This document shows, in pieces, positions 3,529 through 10,147 of a stretch of DNA of 22,089 nucleotides (position 1 is its first letter; every line of letters begins with the position of its first letter). Location: positions 1 through 22,089 of IMG/VR virus record IMGVR_UViG_3300003691_000061; one strand, written 5' to 3'. Both the position numbers and the translations under genes were made by a program. The notes under the pieces were generated by a model. It was not told where the DNA came from. It saw only the letters and a program-made list of their open reading frames with translations, and searched no databases. The DNA comes from a virus.

Positions 3529-4203
3529 CTACTCGTTAAAGAGAGCTGTTTTTTCTGACTTTGTCAGAATTCTGTCATATATCCTAATTGAATCAATGAC
3601 ATTAACAGTTTGCGGAGTGTTGGTATTGCCGTTTTCATAACATCCTATATAGGCATTCGCGCTATTTGTTAATGTATTATGAACTAGGGTGGCACTATCC
3701 ATCAGGACATCATCTTGATACAACCTTATGGCAGTTCCTTCGCGCTCTGCAATGTAATGATGGAAATTTCCGTCCGCTAGTATCGGAGTCTGCGCTGAGT
3801 TGTTATTGGCTATTTGGTCGCTTCTAGCGTGGGTGAATAATATATTGCTAGACAGACTGATAAACTCAATACCATGTCCAGCCCAGCCTGTTAGATTAGA
3901 GCAATATATTCCAGAATAACCAGCCGCGCTAAACATTAACCAAGCAGAGATCGTGTATACATCAGTATTATTTATTGGCTTTGCACTAAGATTTGTTCTG
4001 TCAGTAGCGTTCGCTGGGTATGTCGTACTGTTCCCAATGTGACCTGCTGATATGCCGACACCTGCGGTCATTATGCCGTCATTTCCGTTTTCACTTTCAT
4101 CAACCAACGTCGTTCCGCTGATATTGTCCATCGTGTAATGAGCGATAAAATCATCTGGAATGCCGTTGCCGAATCCAGCCATATTTAAGCCGCCAGCTAT
4201 CAC
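3529..4203 (-). CDS. LamG/concanavalin-like tail protein
   Basis: A 224-aa protein with one laminin-G or concanavalin A-like beta-sandwich over most of its length. It shows the typical series HYTMDN, then GNDG, then YTISAWLMF, then DGNFHHYIAEREG, and finally IDSIRIYDRILTKSE, the closing signature of LamG_3-type domains. Such domains bind glycans or other surface ligands, so the protein probably helps in host recognition or decorates the tail tip. I chose the GTG at 4203 because it overlaps the upstream stop as GTGA. A TTG at 4209 and an ATG at 4182 are in-frame alternatives, and none has a strong ribosome binding site. A 39-nt gap follows before the hub gene. Confidence 0.82.
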   Translation of the reverse strand: MIAGGLNMAGFGNGIPDDFIAHYTMDNISGTTLVDESENGNDGIMTAGVGISAGHIGNSTTYPANATDRTNLSAKPINNTDVYTISAWLMFSAAGYSGIYCSNLTGWAGHGIEFISLSSNILFTHARSDQIANNNSAQTPILADGNFHHYIAEREGTAIRLYQDDVLMDSATLVHNTLTNSANAYIGCYENGNTNTPQTVNVIDSIRIYDRILTKSEKTALFNE

Positions 4204-4874
4204 GACCAAGCCCGTGTTAGTTGCGCGTGAATTGAACCAGTTGTTCTTACCAAGTAATCAAGCCTATCAACCGCGTTAGCCGTTGTTGATAAAATAGGAG
4301 GCGTACCGTTGGCAAAGTCCCAAAACGTGTCATAGATTAGCGTTCTGGAGCCTGTAGCGTCCTGTGTAATGAATATTGAACCTGACTGCCCTGCGACTAA
4401 GTTTGACGGGTTAGCCAGCGTTGAGGCTTGATTTAGCGTTACTGAGAAAAAGTTACTCGCGTTAAAATCAGACGCTATTAATGCGGCTGGTGTTAATGCT
4501 GTTATGCCACCACGTTGGCTTGCTGAATACGTTTGATTCTTATCAACCCTTGCAGAATTGTTTTTGTCATCTGCAACGGGGCCACAAAGTATCGTATGAG
4601 CACCGACTGACAAAGTGATATTTGTAGCAGGGTTAGTATCTACGACCGTTCCGTTAAAATTCCAGTTATCGTTTCGAGTGATGTCATCTGTTGCCGCTAC
4701 ATATATTCCAACGCCGGTAACTTTAATAATGCCGCCTGCATCTTCCAGCGCGTAAGCTATTTCATCGCCATCAACAAATGATTTAGAGAATTGTATGCCG
4801 CCGGCAGTCGTACCGGTAAGCTCTAATAAGTCCCCCGTCCCCGTGCATTCTTCGCTTGTGAAATTAGTAAACAT
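4200..4874 (-). CDS. Beta-rich phage tail structural protein
   Basis: A 224-aa protein with two visible parts. Residues 1-95 carry a pattern seen in phage virion proteins (DLLELTGTTAGGIQFSKSF, DGDEIAYALED, then NITLSVGAHT). The C-terminal part ends with LVAGQSGSIFITQDATGSRT and a hydrophobic strand-rich closing segment, common at the end of phage tail-fibre-like proteins. No enzyme motif, signal peptide or membrane helix is seen. It begins 8 nt after the upstream gene and overlaps the LamG gene, so the three genes after the tape measure form one coupled set. A minor tail or tail-tip role is inferred from context and strand-rich composition. Confidence 0.72.
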   Translation of the reverse strand: MFTNFTSEECTGTGDLLELTGTTAGGIQFSKSFVDGDEIAYALEDAGGIIKVTGVGIYVAATDDITRNDNWNFNGTVVDTNPATNITLSVGAHTILCGPVADDKNNSARVDKNQTYSASQRGGITALTPAALIASDFNASNFFSVTLNQASTLANPSNLVAGQSGSIFITQDATGSRTLIYDTFWDFANGTPPILSTTANAVDRLDYLVRTTGSIHAQLTRAWS

Positions 4875-5524: not shown

Positions 5525-7306
5525 TTATGCGCTGTCTGCGCGTGTTCCTTCTTGCCGTTGTCTGTCTGTAAATGCTCTAAGATCATCTACAAATTTAGGC
5601 TCTGCAAATATCTTGCCTGCGACTTCACCCGTATCAGTCACGAACTTTAACTCTAAGTTTCCGAATTGTGGCGTACTGTTAAGCTTGTCAATAAAGTGGT
5701 TAAGTTTGACGTTTGATTCGTTGTTAGAATTAGCCATCTTTTCAGCAGATAAAGCCATTGCTTGACTTGATACTTTGACCTCACCAATTAAGCCGCTGTT
5801 TCGAAGTTCTTGAATAAGGTCAGCACCTTTCGTCCCGCTCGTGTTCAAGGGCGAATTAGCAGCCATGAGCGTCAAACCTTTGACAACCTCGGCCATCCCC
5901 TGAACGTCAACCTTCTCAAATTGGTTGTTGTTACTAAAGACCATTTGATTCTTTGAAGCACTTTCGAGAATATCACCCAAGTGTTTAAGATGATCTACCG
6001 TGAACTTTGAACCTGATTCAATGCCTTCTTTTACGCGCCTTGCTACTTCATCGAATTGATTTGATCGTGCGGTTATTTCTTCTGTTTTGAATATGTCTTG
6101 CCATACTGTTGATTTGCTTACATCGTCGAGTGTTTTTGCTAGTGTTGCGGCCGCCTTTGCTGCTGCGTCACCTGCTATTTCAACCGCGCTTAGATCAGTA
6201 ATGGCTTGCTCGTTGTTGCTGTTCGCGCTGGCCTCCATTTTCACTTCGACTTCTTTTATAAAGTTTTCAGCATCACGGATAAACTCATTTTCCCCAATTA
6301 AGCTGAACGCTAGATTAGATGACTCCCTGTTAAGCGCTGCTATTTTTTTTGCTACCTTAGTGGTATTAATGTCAGCGTCAATAGGGTTCATCAACTCCAG
6401 CCACTTGACCTGCAAGTCCATTATTTCAATCTGTATTTTGCCGATTATCTTAGATATTTTGGCAAAACCTACAACGATGCTTCCAATAGCATTAATAAAA
6501 AACTTAGCCATCACGCTTGCTGCTTTTTTAACGCCGCCTGTTTTCTTCACCCAATCAGTGAACTGAGTAATAACATGATCCATTGCTGGTGATAAGTGTG
6601 CGGCAAGGTTATTGCCAACGCCGCCGATAATAGCCTTCATTCTATCCATTGAGGCGTTGAACTTTTGAACGCCTGCAACCTGTGAGCCTGAAAGAATAAC
6701 GCCCATTTCTTGCGCTTCTTTGGCTAGTTTTCTAAATGCGTCACCACCTTGGTCTAGCAGTGGTAATAATAAAGACGTGTCACTTGCGATTGATTCAAGA
6801 AAGAATATCTTTTTTTGCTTGGTTAATCCTTCCATTGCTTCGCCTAATTTGAGCAAAGCCTCATCAGGTGCTAGGCCGATGAATTCCTCAGCTTGGATAT
6901 TCATATTCTTGAATAAATCAGCAGCACCGCCGCCGCCTGTGGTTAGGAAGTCACCTAGCTTATCTGAAATATCCTTGAATATATCACCGACTTTCTCGGT
7001 GCTCACTCCGGCCGTCTTAGCAGCATAGCCCCACTCTTGCATGGCCTTGGTACTGATTCCGAAAGCATCAGCCATATTAGCCATCTGCTTTATATTGCTC
7101 GCAGCATTGAGCGTTATAGCTGCTATTCCTGTGACCACACCAGCAGCAGTGATAGACATGACCTTGAATGCCTTAGCCGCTCGTTTAGTGATAGACGCAA
7201 CACTTTTACCCCAGCCTTTTAAACGCTTCTCAGACAGATTAAGAGCCTTGTATAGCTTTGCGCTATTCGCTTCGAGTGAAACTACTAGTTTTGATATTGT
7301 CGCCAT
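5525..7306 (-). CDS. Tail tape measure protein
   Basis: A 593-aa protein that sets tail length by acting as a ruler during tube assembly. The start (MATISKLVVSLEANSAKLYK) is typical of tape measure proteins. A hydrophobic helix lies at about 50-68, a TLNAASNIKQMANMADAFGI segment follows, a second hydrophobic region is at about 265-295, and the C-terminal half is helical with Asn-rich stretches. The gene follows the frameshifted tail chaperones; its ATG shares a base with the stop of the frameshift product (TAATG). If about 0.15 nm of tail per residue applies, the tail would be near 90 nm, shorter than lambda. That estimate is inference. No peptidase or muralytic domain is recognisable. Confidence 0.93.
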   Translation of the reverse strand: MATISKLVVSLEANSAKLYKALNLSEKRLKGWGKSVASITKRAAKAFKVMSITAAGVVTGIAAITLNAASNIKQMANMADAFGISTKAMQEWGYAAKTAGVSTEKVGDIFKDISDKLGDFLTTGGGGAADLFKNMNIQAEEFIGLAPDEALLKLGEAMEGLTKQKKIFFLESIASDTSLLLPLLDQGGDAFRKLAKEAQEMGVILSGSQVAGVQKFNASMDRMKAIIGGVGNNLAAHLSPAMDHVITQFTDWVKKTGGVKKAASVMAKFFINAIGSIVVGFAKISKIIGKIQIEIMDLQVKWLELMNPIDADINTTKVAKKIAALNRESSNLAFSLIGENEFIRDAENFIKEVEVKMEASANSNNEQAITDLSAVEIAGDAAAKAAATLAKTLDDVSKSTVWQDIFKTEEITARSNQFDEVARRVKEGIESGSKFTVDHLKHLGDILESASKNQMVFSNNNQFEKVDVQGMAEVVKGLTLMAANSPLNTSGTKGADLIQELRNSGLIGEVKVSSQAMALSAEKMANSNNESNVKLNHFIDKLNSTPQFGNLELKFVTDTGEVAGKIFAEPKFVDDLRAFTDRQRQEGTRADSA

Positions 7307-7862
7307 TATTTCCCCAACATTTTCATCATTGCATCTGATCGCTGATCGGCCGTCATCATTTCAGCATCTAGCTTTGTTTTGTATTCCTCGTTGCTAAGCA
7401 AATCGTAAGCAAATTCTTCAGCTATTTCTTGGCTATCTAGCTCTTTCAGCATTCGAGAAAATGGCATATTTAGCCGTCTTGCCAGCCCGTAACAATAAGT
7501 CCTGTACGGCTGGCGAATTAGTTTTTTGCTAGCTCCTCAACATCTTCATCACCAATTCTGTTTAGCTTTTGAGCTGCTTCAAAGATACGATCTAGGGCTG
7601 CTGCGCTTTTCTTGCCCAAGGCTGTAATGTCTTTCTCAGTAAATAACAAATTGCCTTCTTCATCCTGCAAAGTGCTAGCAGCGAGCTTAGCGCGTATGTT
7701 GCCAGCGTTAGTGCCGCCATTCTTGCCGATGATAGACGCCTCGAATCTGTCACGAGCAAAGCCAGACATAACGCCGATTATTACTTGCCCGCCCCATTCC
7801 TGAACGTCAACCACGGTTGTTTTTGTATCGTCTGCATTTAAAATATCTTGTTTAGTTAACAT
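7306..7862 (-). CDS. Tail assembly chaperone, long form made by -1 frameshift (GT-like)
   Basis: A -1 slip on the heptamer at 7527-7521 joins the 114-aa short form to a 71-residue extension that stops at the TAA at 7308-7306, for a predicted 185-aa fusion. The extension starts LIRQPYRTYCYGLARRLNMP and continues with FSRMLKELDSQEIAEEFAYD, the characteristic sequence of lambda gpT-like (DUF4035-type) chaperone domains. In lambda, G and GT bind the tape measure protein and recruit tail tube subunits. The extension has no good start of its own at its beginning, which supports its being made only by frameshift. Its stop overlaps the tape measure start. The frameshift itself is predicted from sequence, not measured. 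Confidence 0.85.
7481..7527 (-). promoter_or_regulatory. Programmed -1 frameshift site with downstream hairpin
   Basis: On the minus strand, 7527-7521 reads A AAA AAC in the zero frame (codons GCA AAA AAC), a canonical X XXY YYZ slippery heptamer, followed at once by TAA. After a 6-nt spacer (TAATTC), bases 7514-7505 (GCCAGCCGTA) pair with 7491-7481 (TACGGGCTGGC) to form a 10-bp stem with one bulged G and a 13-nt loop. A Shine-Dalgarno-like GAGGAG (7538-7533) lies 5 nt upstream of the heptamer and could add to slipping. All three elements match known bacterial -1 frameshift stimulators. Confidence 0.88.
7518..7862 (-). CDS. Tail assembly chaperone, short form (gpG-like)
   Basis: A 114-aa protein (MLTKQDILNADDTKTTVVDV at the start, DVEELAKN at the end) directly upstream of the tape measure gene, where G-type tail chaperones lie. 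The N-terminal half is strand-rich (VVDVQEWGGQVIIGVMSG) and the C-terminal half helical, as in this family. It is the product made when ribosomes do not slip at its last codons, which contain the A AAA AAC site. The ATG at 7862 lies inside the end of the upstream zinc-ribbon gene (11-nt overlap), and AAGGG upstream can serve as ribosome binding site. Present during assembly, it is normally absent from the mature virion. Confidence 0.87.
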   Translation of the reverse strand: MLTKQDILNADDTKTTVVDVQEWGGQVIIGVMSGFARDRFEASIIGKNGGTNAGNIRAKLAASTLQDEEGNLLFTEKDITALGKKSAAALDRIFEAAQKLNRIGDEDVEELAKN

Positions 7863-8022
7863 TCCAATTCCCTTTAGGACACTTTTGTCCGTTTAATCTT
7901 GCTTTGAAGTTGAGGAGGCATCCGCAAATTTTGCAGGTTTTTATGACTTTACCTAACTTGTGAACGTGTTCACACTCAAAGCAAATTCTTAAACGCCTTT
8001 CAAGTTCTGTCATTTCTTTCAT
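7852..8022 (-). CDS. Small zinc-ribbon protein (DUF6171-like)
   Basis: A 56-aa protein between the tail tube and chaperone genes. The ATG at 8022 is preceded by GGGGTGAG, a close but usable ribosome binding site. Six cysteines lie in a zinc-ribbon arrangement: C14-x2-C17, then C30-x2-C33-x-C35, then C48. The end KCPKGNW matches the CPxGxW closing motif of small phage zinc-ribbon proteins (DUF6171-like). The C-terminus overlaps the chaperone gene by 11 nt. Such proteins are often seen near phage structural genes, without a settled role; RNA or protein binding through the ribbon is plausible. The family assignment is from memory of the motif, not a search. Confidence 0.82.
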   Translation of the reverse strand: MKEMTELERRLRICFECEHVHKLGKVIKTCKICGCLLNFKARLNGQKCPKGNWNVN

Positions 8023-8116: not shown

Positions 8117-8512
8117 TTAACTCCAGACGATAGCTCCAGTGATTCGCAAATCAATTGTAGATTTAAGGTCATCATCAGCAGAGCCGTCAATGGGCAATGC
8201 TTTCACCAATGCGTCAAACGTAGCAATGTCACCACTTGCCAAGGTTAAGATTACTTCACGCTCGATATTCAAAGCACGAGCCGCAATCATTGCAGCTTGA
8301 CCTACATTATCTGGGTCGTATAAAACGCTAAGCTGTAAAGTACCGTTATCTTGTAGACCTAGCTTGTATTCTTTAGCTGTAGATGCAAGCGTAGTTGTTT
8401 CTCGCTCATCAGCCGTTGAGTCCATGCTGAATGATTTAATGCCGCCAACAACTTGCGCCGATGTTCCATCGTTAAATGATACTGTTGTTCCTTGTGCTGG
8501 GATTATTGCCAT
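8117..8512 (-). CDS. Major tail tube protein
   Basis: A 131-aa protein that should polymerise into the tail tube. It begins with AIIPAQGTTVSFNDGTSAQV and contains MDSTADERETTTLAS and then LQLSVLYDPDN, the usual pattern of a short tail tube protein: an initial beta-hairpin, a loop with TADERETTTL, and later strands. It ends in a strand (DLRITGAIVWS). The length matches the single-domain tube family. The ribosome binding site is strong (GAGG, 7 nt before the ATG), in line with high expression. It lies between the tail terminator and the chaperones, the expected order in siphophages. Confidence 0.9.
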   Translation of the reverse strand: MAIIPAQGTTVSFNDGTSAQVVGGIKSFSMDSTADERETTTLASTAKEYKLGLQDNGTLQLSVLYDPDNVGQAAMIAARALNIEREVILTLASGDIATFDALVKALPIDGSADDDLKSTIDLRITGAIVWS

Positions 8513-9340: not shown

Positions 9341-9671
9341 AGATTACAGCCTCATTTGATGGAGCAATTACTAGCACGTTTACCACCTTTAATATCGCAC
9401 CGCTGATCTGAATGGTTGAGCCGACTAATGGCTTATTATCCGAATCTAGCAGAATACGTGAATCACCTTTTTGCACGACTGTACCGTCTATTTCAGATGT
9501 TTCATAATCGAAGATTGCAGCATTAGCCGTGAATGTTGTGGTTGCACCAGCCGATGTGATGCCGGTAACGGGGTCATAAGTACCATCGCTCTCATGCGTA
9601 ACTGTAGCCTTTTGTCCGAATTTAACCAGCAATCCTTTTGCTGTCTTCGCTAAGTTTGAATAAAAACTCAT
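9318..9671 (-). CDS. Head closure (stopper-like) protein
   Basis: A 117-aa protein that begins SFYSNLAKTAKGLLVKFGQK and continues with a strand-rich core (ATVTHESDGTYDPVTG, KGDSRILLDSD, VGSTIQISG, LKVVNVLVIAPSNEAVIYDA). This is the pattern of small head-closure or stopper proteins that seal the portal channel after packaging. It starts in an ATGA overlap with the connector gene upstream and its end overlaps the gp10-like gene. The assignment uses pattern and order; it could also be listed only as a head-tail joining protein. Confidence 0.8.
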   Translation of the reverse strand: MSFYSNLAKTAKGLLVKFGQKATVTHESDGTYDPVTGITSAGATTTFTANAAIFDYETSEIDGTVVQKGDSRILLDSDNKPLVGSTIQISGAILKVVNVLVIAPSNEAVIYDATGRR

Positions 9672-10147
9672 GCTCTGGTTAACTTAACCGACAAACCACC
9701 ACCGCCACGAACCAATCCGGCTTCATAAGCTCTAATCGTGGGTGATGTTGCTTGCGCTGCTGTACCCGCTTCATATTGAACCGTTATTGGCCCAACTGTT
9801 TCAGACGATGCAACTCGCTCCTGTACTGCCAATGGGTCGACGTCTTTATCTATCGAAACAGCAACCGATAATTGCAGATCAATTAGTTTGCGCGGTATTT
9901 CTGATTCGGTAATGTAAAAGCCGTCAATACGAACACTTGAGCGAGGCCATTGCAAAGACTGGTCTTTAGTGAATTTGCTGCCGATAAAATCGAGGCCTTC
10001 AACGTACTGCATGGCCCTGAATAATAACTCTAATTTATTCGTCTTTAATGTATGACCAATTCGCCCAGCGTATAGCTCTAAATCGGCTGTAGACGCATAA
10101 GAATTCGAACCAGCTACAATGCTGCCGTCTTCAATAATTAAACTCAT
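9668..10147 (-). CDS. Head-tail connector (DnaT-like, gp6-type adaptor)
   Basis: A 159-aa protein that begins SLIIEDGSIVAGSNSYASTA and contains LLFRAMQYVEGLDFIGSKF and SLQWPRSSV, then helical segments. This matches phage proteins annotated as DnaT-like ssDNA-binding or gp6-type adaptors, which sit beneath the portal and form the first ring of the connector. The DnaT name comes from a family profile and need not mean a replication role here. The ATG overlaps the stop of the upstream small structural gene (ATGA). The C-terminal Gly-rich segment may be flexible. Confidence 0.86.
   Translation of the reverse strand: MSLIIEDGSIVAGSNSYASTADLELYAGRIGHTLKTNKLELLFRAMQYVEGLDFIGSKFTKDQSLQWPRSSVRIDGFYITESEIPRKLIDLQLSVAVSIDKDVDPLAVQERVASSETVGPITVQYEAGTAAQATSPTIRAYEAGLVRGGGGLSVKLTRA

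Follow-up and report, generated by a model that had tools for sequence, protein, structure and literature searches.

The tail assembly chaperone gene of an uncultivated phage (IMG/VR record IMGVR_UViG_3300003691_000061; the whole 22,089-nt stretch analyzed is hereafter called the window) very probably carries a lambda G/GT-type signal for −1 programmed ribosomal frameshifting, from which we infer the slippage itself. Judging from its sequence, this one gene almost certainly gives the phage two versions of the chaperone. The first-pass annotation had proposed such a frameshift, and this reading was supported by the comparison with relatives, which conserve the heptamer and its phase as well as the −1 frame and the gpT-like domain.

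Organization of the locus

The following features were located in the window:

5525..7306, minus strand: tape measure protein gene (phrog_2854, tail length tape measure protein, E 2.7e-63)
7306..7521, minus strand: −1 frame extension of 71 codons with a gpT-like domain (stop TAA at 7308-7306; relatives' profile E 1.9e-11)
7481..7514, minus strand: bulged hairpin of 10 bp (arms 7514-7505 and 7492-7481), starting 6 nt past the heptamer
7518..7862, minus strand: G-like tail assembly chaperone gene, zero frame, 114 aa (phrog_344, E 1.8e-26; stop TAA at 7520-7518)
7521..7527, minus strand: slippery heptamer A_AAA_AAC, in phase and adjoining the zero-frame stop
7533..7538, minus strand: Shine–Dalgarno-like GAGGAG, 5 nt 5' of the heptamer, within the codons of the conserved DVEEL motif
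8117-8512: major tail protein gene (PF16460 and phrog_158)

The order of the genes, major tail protein, chaperone, and tape measure, was that of lambda-type G/GT loci. The zero frame of the chaperone ended in GAG GAG CTA GCA AAA AAC TAA (minus strand). All the elements that had been described from the letters of the window were recovered: the A_AAA_AAC directly before the stop (7527-7521, in phase), GAGGAG 5 nt upstream of it (7538-7533), the bulged hairpin 6 nt downstream (7514-7505 with 7492-7481), and the −1 extension up to the tape measure start, which comprised 71 codons and would give a 185-aa fusion. The stop codon of the extension (7308-7306) shared bases with the tape measure ATG (7306), forming TAATG. 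Annotation at the level of open reading frames would lose these 71 residues, as had been noted.

When codons were shuffled, 2.4% of trials had an in-phase heptamer among the final five; when the downstream DNA was shuffled with its dinucleotides preserved, the −1 frame stayed open for 65 codons or more in 0.9%. The product of these chances is about 2e-4, with homology not yet counted. The predicted genes of the window contained 22 in-phase X_XXY_YYZ heptamers; the chaperone heptamer was the only one with a −1 frame running far past the zero-frame stop (209 nt vs. 59 nt for the next best). On the other hand, A_AAA_AAC has been reported as weak in E. coli (PMC4066793), which counts against frameshifting. 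Such weakness suits a signal that needs just a few per cent of slippage, and stimulators may have been selected for this reason.

Regarding the neighboring genes, those for the major tail protein and the chaperone flank an ORF of 56 aa that encodes a cysteine-rich, zinc-ribbon-like protein (7852-8022, minus strand). It overlaps the chaperone start codon, had been missed because it is below the 60-aa ORF limit, and matched DUF6171 weakly (E 1.6e-4, under the curated cut-off). A Laminin_G_3/concanavalin A-like lectin domain (PF13385, E 7e-14) was encoded near the tail genes at 3529-4209 (minus strand); this protein is possibly a receptor-binding part. The product of 9668-10147 (minus strand) was named DnaT_2, 'putative DnaT-like ssDNA binding protein', by Pfam and head-tail adaptor Ad1 by PHROGs; its location among connector genes favors the adaptor, and the Pfam name is probably misleading. 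Rfam gave no matches in the window, and neither a near-identical phage record nor a close named relative of the 22-kb stretch was found.

Conservation of the heptamer and the −1 frame

We collected 90 loci by the chaperone, comprising 80 relatives from viral contigs, nine loci of named phages, and the window. An in-phase slippery X_XXY_YYZ near the zero-frame end was present in 84 of them, with AAAAAAC in 46, GGGAAAC in 19, and other heptamers in the remainder; in the few relatives with more than one candidate heptamer, the exact slip site is a guess. A reverse search that began from the T domain only gave 80 loci, some contigs being common to both searches, and in 76 of these an in-phase heptamer was preceded by an open zero frame. 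None of the 80 encoded the chaperone and T as one in-frame gene. The comparison with relatives that the first-pass annotation had called for thus went in favor of its reading: an in-phase heptamer was kept in 84/90 and 76/80 loci, and the −1 frame and the gpT-like domain were conserved.

Three close relatives, L012, L130 (from a Motiliproteus MAG), and L092, had chaperones 72%, 68%, and 61% identical to that of the window, respectively. Each had GCA AAA AAC followed by TAA directly or one codon on, and their extensions were T-like and 71–80 aa long. Loss of one A during assembly or sequencing, the true run having seven A's within one fused gene, would fit a heptamer that is a homopolymer run in which one added A joins the frames, but such an indel is practically ruled out, since these three independent assemblies of 61–72% identity share the same AAAAAAC and prompt stop, relatives with the non-homopolymer GGGAAAC share the arrangement, and fused genes were absent from all the T-domain loci; with the heptamer conserved as well, −1 frameshifting remains as the explanation.

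The canonical heptamer, by the rule used here, was missing in six of the 90 chaperone loci. Three Rhodococcus phages (L004, L005, L008) and a Thermobifida phage (L009) had no such heptamer, yet retained both the chaperone and T in the −1 frame. Near the chaperone end, non-canonical loci had sequences such as GAG TCT TTC, with TCTTTC-like sequences in the Rhodococcus phages; these four phages probably use a different slip motif. In another locus (L073), the −1 extension continued in frame into the tape measure for 829 codons; a shift there could give a chaperone–T–tape measure fusion, or the record could be in error.

The T-like extension

A profile built from about 53 dereplicated extensions of relatives, with the window and L012 left out, scored the extension of the window at 40.5 bits (E 1.9e-11), compared with a maximum of 8.0 in 1000 shuffles, bearing out the gpT-like character that had been assigned to it. 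The top matches of this profile included no further six-frame fragment from the window. The extensions of relatives matched Pfam PF06223 (Phage_tail_T) with E-values down to 1.6e-25; three relatives passed the curated cut-off of this family, and L130 did not. For the extension of the window alone, PF06223 was not reported, the Pfam match being at chance level, and there was no PHROG match; tblastn of the 71 residues against named phages also gave no matches. We aligned the extension with those of the three close relatives, and this four-sequence alignment, led by the window, matched lambda gpT over 29 columns (hhalign E 0.0054, low probability). The extension is short (71 aa) and lacks the latter half of the T domain, which is conserved. 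By sequence comparison, it is T-like yet below formal PF06223 membership, and its link to T runs through the relatives.

Conservation of the T domain began at codon 1 of the extension. This bears on reinitiation after the TAA, in which translation would restart inside the extension, where the first ATG is codon 19, and give a separate small T protein. The extension does contain several in-frame ATG codons; however, the domain is conserved from codon 1 on, and the 18 codons ahead of the first ATG include neither GTG nor TTG. Together with an in-phase heptamer that would be superfluous and is retained in more than 90% of relatives, this makes reinitiation extremely improbable.

RNA structure downstream of the heptamer

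The stem of the window had a free energy of about −17.9 kcal/mol, and z ranged between −2.4 and −4.2 according to which stretch was folded. Its 6-nt spacer is within the 5–8 nt at which a stable hairpin is placed in dnaX-like signals. When codons were replaced at random by synonymous ones keeping the −1 protein, 2 of 200 sequences folded as well as the window, and the same number was obtained for L012 (2/200).

Over 55 loci, the excess of structure had its maximum right after the heptamer. We further used a synonymous null in which codons were permuted between relatives, per column and within G+C quartiles; it ignores the tree. With kinship so ignored, the first set of 59 loci gave z −9.5 at extension codons 3–20, while its four control stretches gave −1.9, −0.5, −0.9, and 0.0. 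A second set of 35 further loci, picked to differ from the first, gave z −5.8 after the heptamer under the same kinship-blind null, with controls at −4.0 (codons 21–38), −1.3, and 0.1. The control value of −4.0 indicates that the structure effect is real, yet not perfectly local. By these codon statistics, a selected RNA structure is located just after the heptamer family-wide, and this was replicated in the second set.

The pairing itself differed among relatives. The 5' arm paired with codons 11–14 in the window and with codons farther downstream in L012; stem pairing in L130, a prophage, and in the IMG/VR loci L012 and L092 was unlike that of the window, and L092 folded weakly after the heptamer. 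Compensating stem changes, which the first-pass annotation had suggested looking for, were not seen: relatives had stems at the same place with other 3' partners, and the base pairs were not conserved through compensation in the manner of dnaX-like signals. Since the register varies, compensation within a single stem is not borne out, and what is kept is structure at the same place.

One conserved stem was likewise rejected on the 59-locus alignment, in which mean pair probabilities were spread over several registers. A pseudoknot between the hairpin loop and downstream sequence was unconvincing, with 5-nt matches including G-U as the only candidates. Structure was not significantly stronger with A_AAA_AAC than with G_GGA_AAC (p 0.20).

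The Shine–Dalgarno-like element

Because the Glu-Glu of the conserved DVEEL motif is encoded by GAGGAG, finding this sequence there does not by itself prove a function. The choice between synonymous codons was more telling: the first Glu codon was GAG in 27 of 30 Glu-Glu loci, vs. 57% for the Glu-Glu pairs located elsewhere in those loci (Fisher p 2.8e-4). The second set repeated this, with GAG in 17/17 (p 1e-4). No GAG preference was found for the second Glu codon (11/30). On this codon evidence, GAG over GAA is selected family-wide in a GAGGAR located 5 nt before the heptamer, and the element lies at a stimulatory distance by the dnaX-like standard (published range 6–17).

Transcriptional slippage on the A run, producing mRNAs with extra A that are read without any ribosomal shift, would be expected to yield the same 185-aa protein, and runs like A6 are prone to slippage. 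Six A's are, however, short for this process, many relatives have GGGAAAC without a long run, and the ribosome is implicated by the selection acting on GAGGAR and on RNA structure; we consider transcriptional slippage very unlikely.

A further alternative retains the ribosomal frameshift and takes the hairpin and GAGGAG as incidental, with the heptamer acting alone. Prokaryotic −1 signals sometimes have no downstream structures (PMC4066793), GAGGAG codes for conserved residues, and the register of the stem varies. These points are set against the synonymous-codon tests, which detected selection for both the hairpin and GAGGAG and were both replicated, and a heptamer acting alone is therefore rather unlikely.

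Proposed mechanism and comparison with known systems

Under −1 programmed frameshifting with both stimulators, most ribosomes would stop at the TAA and release the 114-aa chaperone. A minority, delayed by the downstream hairpin and by base pairing between GAGGAG and 16S rRNA, would move back by one base on A_AAA_AAC and produce the 185-aa fusion with the T-like domain. Slippage probably happens, at a rate of a few per cent. For two genes belonging to an HK97-like tail chaperone cluster, 6–7% frameshifting was measured (PMC3711429). If the two proteins act as they do in lambda, the shorter one would cover the tape measure protein, and the longer, rarer one would bring in the major tail protein to begin tail-tube assembly. 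That G/GT frameshifting is known in lambda-type phages was correctly stated in the first-pass annotation: lambda makes many gpG per gpGT; the tape measure is bound by G, and the major tail protein by T (PMC5009743).

The locus shares with lambda G/GT a −1 shift near the chaperone end, the setting between the major tail protein and the tape measure, and a rare T-domain fusion. The lambda heptamer is G_GGA_AAG. The window differs in having A_AAA_AAC right at the stop and a short T-like extension of 71 aa, and its chaperone has no recognizable sequence relation to gpG. The Streptomyces phages phiSASD1 (genes 35/35.1) and Dubu (13/14) have chaperones of about 44–46% identity, the heptamer at the stop, and a T extension reaching the tape measure, but their heptamer is G_GGA_AAC followed by TGA, their extensions are 115–118 aa, and their hosts are actinobacterial. 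With E. coli dnaX, the window shares a three-part design of a Shine–Dalgarno-like sequence, an A-rich heptamer, and a downstream hairpin. In dnaX, the heptamer is A_AAA_AAG and the Shine–Dalgarno-like sequence is about 10 nt upstream; the shift shortens the product there and lengthens it in the window.

The signal had been called unusually clean. Its layout is complete; however, many relatives are equally complete, and joined genes are annotated in named relatives, namely Jflix2, phiSASD1, and Dubu, in which the frameshift CDS is already given. Genes of the G/GT type also served as the training case of a published predictor covering 2,476 joined genes (PMC10885494). The kind of frameshift is thus known, and the window, from an uncultivated phage, adds one more G/GT gene that had not been annotated before. 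Family-wide selection on both stimulators was not found in the literature searched, a scope outside which the survey of Xu, Hendrix and Duda (2004) lies.

The annotation of the chaperone locus is corrected by the 71 residues regained. The synonymous-codon tests exposed stimulators that are missed by a fixed consensus structure, and they may help frameshift predictors. The phrog_344 chaperone family relies largely on heptamers reported to be weak in E. coli (PMC4066793). We consider it rather likely that the codons for two conserved protein motifs, DVEEL ahead of the slip site and RPER...LALALG past it, double in this family as a Shine–Dalgarno-like brake and a stimulatory hairpin with a drifting partner, both under selection.
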